Shown here: positions 45,812 through 59,282 of the stretch, piece by piece
How the letters are laid out: every line of letters starts with the position of its first letter
How positions within the stretch are numbered: position 1 is the stretch's first letter
Assembly (NCBI RefSeq): GCF_014644295.1
Contig: NZ_BMKK01000005.1
Coordinates: 310,001-374,000 of the forward strand
Reading direction: 5' to 3'
Source of the DNA: Emticicia aquatilis
GTDB lineage: Bacteria > Bacteroidota > Bacteroidia > Cytophagales > Spirosomataceae
Length of the DNA: 64,000 bases
Notes under the pieces: generated by a model
Seen by the model: only the letters and a program-made list of their open reading frames with translations
Databases searched by the model: none
What the model was told of the DNA's origin: nothing
Program-made: the position numbers and the translations under genes

Positions 45812-45944
45812 TTCATTGCCGTCTGCTTTAGCTGACGGATTTTTGAATATAAACAAAATTGACTTTAGTCAAACTCAAATGGTTCGACTAAAGTCTAATC
45901 TGATTATCTATAAGTATCCGTCAGCTAAAGCAGACGGCAATGAA
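45812..45944. repeat. 133-bp nested palindrome (TGCCGTCTGCTTTAGCTGAC type)
   Basis: Perfect 29-bp terminal inverted repeats (45812-45840 and 45916-45944; core CCGTCTGCTTTAGCTGACGG) enclose a second pair, GACTTTAGTC (45861-45870) and GACTAAAGTC (45886-45895). It carries no credible gene. It lies between convergent genes and looks like a small non-autonomous element. Confidence 0.85.
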
Positions 45945-56432: not shown

Positions 56433-59282
56433 ATGCTCAATAAAACAATAGGATTAATCCTCCTCGCAAGCACAATTGCTGCTGCCCAACCCAAATGGAA
56501 GCCAATCACGCAACAATCAAAACCGTGGACGAGATGGTGGTGGGAAGGCAATGCCGTAAACCCCAAAGACCTGACCTACAACATGGAAGGCTTTCAAAAA
56601 GTAGGTCTTGGCGGAGTAGAAATTACGCCAATTTACGGAGTGAAAGGCCATGAATCAGAATTTATTGATTTTCTTTCGCCGAAATGGGTTGATATGTTTA
56701 AGCATACCCTCAAAGAAGGTACTCGCCTCGGCATAGGCATCGACTTGGCAAATGCGTCAGGTTGGCCTTTTGGTGGTCGTTGGGTTACGCCCGAAGATGC
56801 TTGTAAGGCAGTTTTTCATAAAACATATCAACTAAAAGAAGGCGAAACACTCAATGAAAATATCACTTTTGTTCAGCAACCGATTTTAAGATATGTTTTG
56901 CCTAAGAAAACCGAACTAAAAGATTTAAAATACCCCATTTCAAAAAATGATAACTTGCAAGAACTGGCCATCGACCAAGTGCGTTTCGAGCAAGCACTGC
57001 CGCTACAAACTCTAATGGCATATTCAGATAAAAATGAAGTCGTTAATTTAACAGAAAAAGTAAACAAAGAAGGTAAACTCAACTGGCAAGCCCCCGCAGG
57101 AAATTGGACACTCTACGCAGTTTTTCAAGGTTTTCATGGCAAGATGGTCGAGCGTGCTGGCCCAAGTGGCGAAGGCGATGTAATTGACCATTTTTCTTCA
57201 AAAGCCATCAAAAATTACCTTTCGACATTCGATAAGGCTTTTGCCAAAACCGATGTTTCGAGTATGCGAGCGTTCTTCAATGACTCTTATGAGGTTGATG
57301 ATGCTCGTGGACAATCAGACTGGACTGAAGCTCTTTTCGATGAATTCAAAACTCGCCGTGGTTATGATTTACGGAATCATTTACCCAACCTTTTTAGCAA
57401 AGAAAAATCCGACCTCAATAGCCGAGTTTTATTCGATTACCGCAGCACAATCGGCGATTTGATTCTCGAAAAATATACTTCAGAATGGGCAAAATGGGCT
57501 CACGGACGTGGAAAAATCGTGCGAAACCAAGCACACGGCTCACCAGCAAATACATTGGATTTATATAGTGTGGTGGATATTCCCGAAATCGAAGGTACGG
57601 ATTTGCTTCGTATCAAATTTGCTTCTTCGGCTGCAAACGTTATGGGCAAAAAACTCGCTTCTTCGGAGTCGGCTACTTGGGAAAACGAGCATTTCCTCTC
57701 GAATTTGTCCGATGTGAAACGTGCTTTAGACCTCTTCATGGTAGGCGGTGTCAATCACTTATTCTATCATGGCACGCCCTATACACCACAAAATGCGGCT
57801 TTTCCGGGTTGGCTGTTTTATGCGGCGGTGCATTTTACACCTCACAATCCTTTTTGGAAAGATTTCGGTAAATTGAATAATTATGTGGCTCGCTGCCAGG
57901 CTTTCCTGCAAGATAGCAAAGGCAATAACGACGTTTTATTTTATTTCCCTATCACCGACCGTCTTACCGAACAATCGCCAAAGGGTTTACTCGAACATTT
58001 CGATGGAGTTACACCAGAATTTAACGGTACAGATTTCAAAGAATTAGGTCAAAAGCTCCTCGACCGTGGTTATGGTTTTGATTTTATTTCTGACAAACAA
58101 ATCTTAAATCTTCATACAGCAAACCACGCAATTCTGACTGGCGGTATTCAGTACAAAACCATTTTAATTGCTGATAGTGAGCAAATTCCACTCGAAACTT
58201 TCGAGAAACTCATCAATTTAGCCAAACAAGGAGCAACTATTATTGTGCATAAAAAACTCCCTTCGGATGTACCAGGTTTGGGTAATTTAGATACCCGTCG
58301 AGCAAAATTTAAAGCTTTGCTGGCTCAGCTACGCTTTGAAAACGTCGGCAGGGTTCAGAACCCTGCCGACGTTAAGCAAAAATTCAGTCAAGCCAAAATT
58401 GGTCAAGGTTCATTTTTAGTAGGTGACGATTTAGACGAAATGATGATTTTTGCAAAAATCTACCGAGAAACTATGATTGATAATGGCTTGCAGTTTGTCA
58501 GAAAAACTCACGCCAAAGGCAATTATTATTTCGTAAATAACAAAACCACAAAAGCATTTGACGGTTGGGTAAAATTATCGGTTGATGCAAAATCGGCTGC
58601 ACTGTACAACCCAATGACTGAGGCTTTGGGTATGGCCAAATACAACGCAAAAATCAACGAAATTTATCTGCAATTGGCAGCGGGCGAATCGTGCATTATC
58701 GAAACCTACAAAACCCCAGTTTCGGGAACAGCCTATGCGTACTTCAAACCCAAAGGCGAAGCCCAAGAACTGACAGGAACATGGAAAATCAGCTTCTTGG
58801 AAGGTGGCCCCGAATTACCAAAAACTATCGAAACAAAATCGCTTGGCTCTTGGACGAAATTGGAGGGTGAGGCCTACAAAAACTTCTCTGGAACGGCATC
58901 CTATTCACTTGATTTCACAAATCCAAATACCTCATCAGCAGGCTATTGGCTCGATTTAGGCAAAGTGGCCGAAAGTGCAACGGTTACAATCAACGGAAAG
59001 TTTTTGGGAACACTCATTGGGCCGACTTACCGAGTTTTTGTGCCGAATTCATTATTAAAAGCACAAAATACATTAGTCGTAAATGTATCGAACTCAATGG
59101 CCAACCGAGTAATTGCTATCGAAAAACAAGGCGTTGTTTGGCAGAAGTTCTACAACATCAATGTTTCGGCAAGGTTGCGACCAAATTTGGGTAAGGATGG
59201 ATATTTCACAACCCAAAATTGGCAACCAAGAGATTCGGGTTTGCTCGAAAAAGTAACATTGACAGCAGTTGAAAAGGAATAG
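56433..59282 (+). CDS. GH106-type alpha-L-rhamnosidase
   Basis: A 949-residue exported glycoside hydrolase. The N-terminal KPWTRWWWEGNAVNPKDLTY is typical of GH106. After the signal peptide (about 1-18) the catalytic barrel runs to about 600; a C-terminal beta-sandwich (about 830-940, SATVTINGKFLGTLIGPTYR) resembles galactose-binding modules. It should cleave terminal alpha-L-rhamnose from rhamnogalacturonan or arabinogalactan side chains. A 33-bp perfect palindrome near residues 637-647 adds eleven codons in frame. Rhamnose from this enzyme would feed the aldolase/dehydrogenase at 1403-3484. Confidence 0.87.
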   Translation: MLNKTIGLILLASTIAAAQPKWKPITQQSKPWTRWWWEGNAVNPKDLTYNMEGFQKVGLGGVEITPIYGVKGHESEFIDFLSPKWVDMFKHTLKEGTRLGIGIDLANASGWPFGGRWVTPEDACKAVFHKTYQLKEGETLNENITFVQQPILRYVLPKKTELKDLKYPISKNDNLQELAIDQVRFEQALPLQTLMAYSDKNEVVNLTEKVNKEGKLNWQAPAGNWTLYAVFQGFHGKMVERAGPSGEGDVIDHFSSKAIKNYLSTFDKAFAKTDVSSMRAFFNDSYEVDDARGQSDWTEALFDEFKTRRGYDLRNHLPNLFSKEKSDLNSRVLFDYRSTIGDLILEKYTSEWAKWAHGRGKIVRNQAHGSPANTLDLYSVVDIPEIEGTDLLRIKFASSAANVMGKKLASSESATWENEHFLSNLSDVKRALDLFMVGGVNHLFYHGTPYTPQNAAFPGWLFYAAVHFTPHNPFWKDFGKLNNYVARCQAFLQDSKGNNDVLFYFPITDRLTEQSPKGLLEHFDGVTPEFNGTDFKELGQKLLDRGYGFDFISDKQILNLHTANHAILTGGIQYKTILIADSEQIPLETFEKLINLAKQGATIIVHKKLPSDVPGLGNLDTRRAKFKALLAQLRFENVGRVQNPADVKQKFSQAKIGQGSFLVGDDLDEMMIFAKIYRETMIDNGLQFVRKTHAKGNYYFVNNKTTKAFDGWVKLSVDAKSAALYNPMTEALGMAKYNAKINEIYLQLAAGESCIIETYKTPVSGTAYAYFKPKGEAQELTGTWKISFLEGGPELPKTIETKSLGSWTKLEGEAYKNFSGTASYSLDFTNPNTSSAGYWLDLGKVAESATVTINGKFLGTLIGPTYRVFVPNSLLKAQNTLVVNVSNSMANRVIAIEKQGVVWQKFYNINVSARLRPNLGKDGYFTTQNWQPRDSGLLEKVTLTAVEKE
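58341..58373. repeat. 33-bp perfect palindrome inside the GH106 gene
   Basis: AACGTCGGCAGGGTTC (58341-58356), a central A, and GAACCCTGCCGACGTT (58358-58373). It encodes about NVGRVQNPADV, keeps the frame because it is 33 bp long, and is GC-rich compared with the gene. Confidence 0.85.

Follow-up and report, generated by a model that had tools for sequence, protein, structure and literature searches.

Palindromic repeats that lie inside genes and decorate the encoded proteins are known from bacteria, both as Rickettsia palindromic elements (RPEs) and as intragenic REPs (PMC3733652; related reviews, PMC10969869, PMC2229807). Among the REPs, the GTAG superfamily comprises REPs/BIMEs with RAYT, a Y1 HUH transposase (PMC3733652, PMC6006769), which carry an unpaired terminal GTAG, have a linked RAYT gene flanked by the repeat and form 20-40-bp palindromes that mostly follow genes, in the space between ORFs that converge or run in the same direction, and rarely lie inside them. 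The CGTC REPs, to which Di Nocera et al. 2013 (PMC3733652) assign RPE-4 and RPE-6, consist of an unpaired CGTC tag, an 8-9-bp stem, a 4-5-nt loop and a CCA-like tail. Here, we describe a palindromic unit that lies in frame inside a gene of Emticicia aquatilis, in a window of 64,000 nucleotides (the whole stretch of DNA that was analysed). The genome of this window is referred to as G000, and the compared congeneric genomes as G001-G010. The features of the locus are listed in Table 1.

Table 1 Features of the palindromic unit and its host gene, in window coordinates.
Feature	Position	Strand	Basis
Host gene, GH106 alpha-L-rhamnosidase, 949 aa	56433..59282	+	ORF; Pfam PF17132; PDB matches
33-nt palindromic repeat unit, 15-bp arms and 3-nt loop CAG (equivalently 16-1-16)	58341..58373	.	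Sequence and family model
Left arm AACGTCGGCAGGGTT	58341..58355	+	Sequence
Loop CAG, differs among copies	58356..58358	.	Comparison of copies
Right arm AACCCTGCCGACGTT, reverse complement of left arm	58359..58373	-	Sequence

The segment 58341-58373 is a perfect 16-1-16 inverted repeat, AACGTCGGCAGGGTTC-A-GAACCCTGCCGACGTT, and no other perfect palindrome of the window has arms of 15 nt or more and a loop of 3 nt or less. The first-pass annotation had called it a GC-rich perfect palindrome of 33 bp and had read from it eleven in-frame codons for the peptide NVGRVQNPADV. Both statements are borne out: the G+C content of the palindrome is 61%, compared to 42% for the GH106 gene and 38% for the window, and the peptide corresponds to residues 637-647, encoded in phase 0 of the ORF 56433-59282. 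The exact length of eleven codons results from the 33 nt of the unit and is no adaptation to coding.

The palindrome belongs to a dispersed family whose consensus unit is AACGTCGGCANGGTTNNNAACCNTGCCGACGTT, and the GH106 copy is identical to this genome-wide consensus. A search of the genome for the palindrome, as the annotation had advised, indeed revealed further copies: the core GTCGGCAGGGTT-NNN-AACCCTGCCGAC has 7 exact occurrences, and 17 when up to 3 mismatches are allowed, and a covariance model built from 20 copies gave 88 two-strand matches, corresponding to about 44 loci. On 58341..58373 itself, the family model R1 scores 59.2 bits (E 1.6e-13 on the plus and 2.2e-13 on the minus strand); the covariance model found no second family copy in the 64-kb window. 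The conserved unit begins with AAC and ends with GTT, and the flanks are not conserved. Within the genus, the model detects about 34 loci in G004, 20 in G006, 22 in G010, 10 in G009 and 8 in G005, and no copies in G001-G003, G007 and G008, and several intergenic copies are common to more than one species. In public genomes, the exact unit occurs at 51 loci in about 17 other assemblies, all of them Bacteroidota (Emticicia, Runella, Arcicella, Saprospiraceae, Chitinophagales). Separately, the window contains a nested inverted repeat with 63-nt arms at 45812-45944 (GCCGTCTGCTTTAGCTGACGG ... CCGTCAGCTAAAGCAGACGGC, predicted -73 kcal/mol), directly past a 397-aa ORF and ahead of an opposing 508-aa ORF, which is possibly another palindromic repeat family.

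Some copies show additional structure. Two segments of the window genome, L003:1462-1555 and L012:1473-1565, are alike over about 94 bp at 86% identity, palindrome included, which suggests a longer repeat or a duplicated flank. Extra tandem half-units are found in L066, L087, L089, L090, L101-L103, L105 and L106 (Saprospiraceae and Bacteroidetes MAGs), where AACCCTGCCGACGTT alternates with 0-4-nt spacers, often with an 18-nt period and the same spacer (TAG three times in L102); the array of L089 lies inside a 936-aa ORF and reads NVGRVSNVGRVSNPADVNPADVNPADV. In G000:C7:77801-77847, G000:C23:11255-11306, L133 and L196, one arm contains a second short motif (CAGTTCCACTG and a few bases more), and the hairpin itself therefore seems to be a target of another small repeat.

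We inspected the location of 36 genome copies on the basis of simple ORF calls. In 29 cases, the copy is intergenic, 15 times between convergent, 13 times between co-directional and once between divergent genes, with 28 of these 29 downstream of at least one gene; one further copy lies at a contig edge and six lie in predicted ORFs, only three of which are firm genes. The distance to a stop codon is mostly no more than about 100 nt, and copies are enriched between convergent genes. Since the family is mainly extragenic, insertion into a gene is the exception. There is no clear enrichment of a U-tract after 25 extragenic copies (T 0.39 in the next 8 nt vs 0.34 further out), and an intrinsic terminator was rejected as an interpretation of the hairpins on this ground.

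The host protein matches the Pfam family GH106 (PF17132) with an E value of 1.7e-77, and the best solved-structure matches of its model are the GH106 enzymes 6q2f and 5mwk, with 5mqm as a further PDB match. In the AlphaFold model (mean pLDDT 69.4), residues 640-648 have pLDDT values below 50 and form a low-confidence loop predicted between a confident helix (619-631) and a confident strand (651-656); a profile alignment to the solved structure 6q2f gave no counterpart for the segment. An alignment of GH106 homologues, the second check named by the annotation, showed the segment to be absent from the orthologues of G010, G009, G005, G007 and G006, which are 83-92% identical. Only the sister species G004 carries it, at the same codon and reading NVGKVQNLADV. 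Because G000 and G004 are sisters in the GH106 tree (support 1.000), one insertion in their ancestor is enough. The two copies differ by a single base pair, G-C vs A-T, a change in both arms that costs two amino-acid replacements and is accompanied by no synonymous change. This double-sided change is suggestive, but conservation of the GH106 copy does not significantly exceed that of the surrounding gene, where differences as few as its own are found in 95 of the 724 windows of eleven codons. The peptide is probably a tolerated passenger loop. Compared to the empty genes, the net gain at the site is 27 nt, not 33, and therefore either 6 nt were lost or the loop was already altered.

Copies also lie inside other genes. 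The Kdo transferase gene waaA carries the unit in G000 only, and the orthologues are mostly exactly 33 nt shorter at the site (G004, G006, G009, G010, G007); the 16 nt to the right of the copy are unlike every empty orthologue. A subtilase gene is filled in the same frame in G000, G004 and G010, in the latter by a decayed copy that is still in frame, and empty in G005 and G009. The subtilase insertion is older than the species-specific one in waaA. At the GH106, WaaA and subtilase sites, the unit is in frame in a protein gene and absent from orthologues, as expected for an element of the RPE kind. In other genomes, in-frame copies are further found in two histidine kinases, each time in the HATPase domain, in a response regulator of the LytTR type, in a protein with an FGE-sulfatase domain, in an AMP-binding enzyme and in an Arcicella GH106 protein, where the position is another one than in G000. 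These copies use two frames (NVGRV.NPADV and TSAG..TLPT), loops that would create stop codons are absent, and all three frames are stop-free with the loop of the GH106 copy. In-frame insertions, whose recurrence the annotation had considered as a possible source of protein loops, thus do recur in unrelated genes.

The arms of the unit vary in concert. In a set of 25 distinct copies, standard pairs make up 98.9% of the paired cells, and changes on both sides affect 7 pairs and 27 cells vs 5.6 in shuffles, with none of 500 shuffles as high. At orthologous sites, we counted 9 double changes vs 1.3 expected if the arms changed independently, a number reached in none of 20000 randomisations, with orthologue pairs that are not independent of one another. 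Loops at these sites have also changed (12 of 33 loop positions). The CGTC within the stem is paired with GACG, and its variants CGAC, GGTC and CGCT are compensated. These compensated arm changes indicate that pairing matters, either for a function or for the copying process. At the intergenic site orthologous to L015, each species has a different well-paired hairpin (L201 in G005, L191 in G004, L200 in G010), the one of G005 being longer (about 54 nt).

We infer actual movement of the unit from its presence and absence between species. Target-site duplications are not visible at the WaaA and GH106 junctions, and with the 27-nt gain at GH106 and the dissimilar 16 nt beside the WaaA copy neither junction is clean; the net gain of 27 nt together with the lack of a visible duplication implies that this is not textbook transposition. 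The annotation's small mobile palindrome is supported in part: both of its checks, for further copies in the genome and for absence from close GH106 homologues, turned out in its favour. A parent transposon with the unit as its ends was rejected, as no transposon-length pair is found among the matches listed for 14 genomes, where half-sites are mostly paired within about 18-50 nt or resemble decayed copies. Linkage to Y1/RAYT genes was likewise rejected: none of the 37 Y1_Tnp loci examined in the genus has a copy within about 1.5 kb; the window genome contains 10 Y1_Tnp genes. Carriage by phages or plasmids was dismissed with no phage match and one 20-nt chance plasmid match. Near another palindrome pair, CCATAGC...GCTATGG, a Y1 transposase gene with an internal stop was noticed (L054, G000:C10 near 184404); this arrangement is likely a true REP/RAYT remnant.

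Taken together, the reading of a small mobile palindrome that adds a protein loop is largely supported, and we consider it probable that the unit is a non-autonomous REP/RPE-like repeat that spread in some Bacteroidota by copying of a hairpin and entered the GH106 gene once, where it encodes a passenger loop. The entry would have occurred in the common ancestor of G000 and G004, with a hairpin in single-stranded form as the copied intermediate; Y1/HUH transposases working in trans, or template switching during replication, may have done the copying. The insertion may have survived because the unit has 33 nt, its frames are stop-free and the site is a predicted surface loop. Downstream of genes, the hairpin, if active at all, would probably act as an RNA or DNA structure, e.g. 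as a barrier at mRNA 3'-ends. A bolder version, in which the units form a tagless, fully symmetric class of mobile hairpins across Bacteroidota classes without a linked transposase, with an active upkeep of arm complementarity that extends to coding genes, which can grow by in-frame 15- or 18-nt half-units and which is a recurrent source of new protein loops, strikes us as rather doubtful.

Alternatively, the unit could be a selected functional hairpin, either a terminator or a stabiliser of mRNA 3'-ends, which purifying selection retains at the ends of genes and which is now immobile, the few intragenic copies being old accidents. The location close to stop codons and between convergent genes, the compensated arms with freely varying loops and the intergenic copies common to different species are in line with this, but the missing U-tract enrichment, the occurrence of the same sequence, not just the same shape, in distant classes with a patchy distribution within the genus, and the WaaA site filled in one species only make it unlikely. 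It is very improbable that the palindrome is recognised by a DNA-binding protein with a chromosome-organising or regulatory role: the dispersal of about 44 copies and the strong conservation of their half-sites would suit such a site, yet a protein reading the double helix needs no co-variation of half-sites, whereas the observed changes are compensated, and divergent promoters are avoided (1 of 29 copies). An origin in situ, in which a template switch corrected an imperfect inverted repeat of the GH106 gene, is barely credible, as the copy equals the genome-wide consensus and the empty orthologues have no quasi-palindrome at the site; this kind of correction is able to maintain matched arms and could account for the double-sided difference that separates G000 from G004, so that, contradicted by the family as the origin, it may contribute to the upkeep of arm matching. 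A chance palindrome in ordinary coding sequence, for which no support was found, is refuted by the expected number of about 1.5e-5 perfect 16-1-16 palindromes in a random 64-kb sequence, the near-identical units elsewhere in the genome and the orthologues without the segment.

Compared to the described systems, the probable mobile repeat resembles the Rickettsia palindromic elements as small palindromes located between genes and in frame in many unrelated genes, adding short peptides. With REPs in the broad sense, it shares the 20-40-bp palindrome and the dispersed, multi-copy and mostly extragenic occurrence downstream of genes. Unlike the GTAG REPs, it has no GTAG tag, and no RAYT gene flanked by the unit was found at the Y1_Tnp loci of the genus. 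In contrast to the CGTC REPs (RPE-4/RPE-6, dRS3), for which Di Nocera et al. found no transposase either (PMC3733652), the 33-nt unit is symmetric, with a 15-bp stem and a 3-nt loop, and its CGTC is paired and changeable with compensation. MITEs (PMC10969869) agree with the unit in being short inverted repeats that are non-autonomous and dispersed and may reside within genes, but 33 nt is far below the usual MITE length, and neither a target duplication at the WaaA and GH106 junctions nor a matching autonomous element among the matches listed was found. Matches to known RNA families are sub-threshold only, just two papers of the open literature, both unrelated, print the core arms, and we found no description of the family, or of such repeats in these genera, in this literature, outside of which lie most subscription journals and figures. 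The family appears to be an undescribed, REP/RPE-like one that lacks the defining tags of both described REP superfamilies. A palindromic insert that adds a peptide is a phenomenon already known from other bacteria; what appears to be new is the hairpin family. The finding extends the RPE-type phenomenon to Bacteroidota that are free-living, and it comes with orthologous sites both filled and empty and, within a coding gene, with a pair that co-varies. Two questions thereby become testable, namely what copies tagless REP-like hairpins and whether it is selection or the copying process that keeps them paired.
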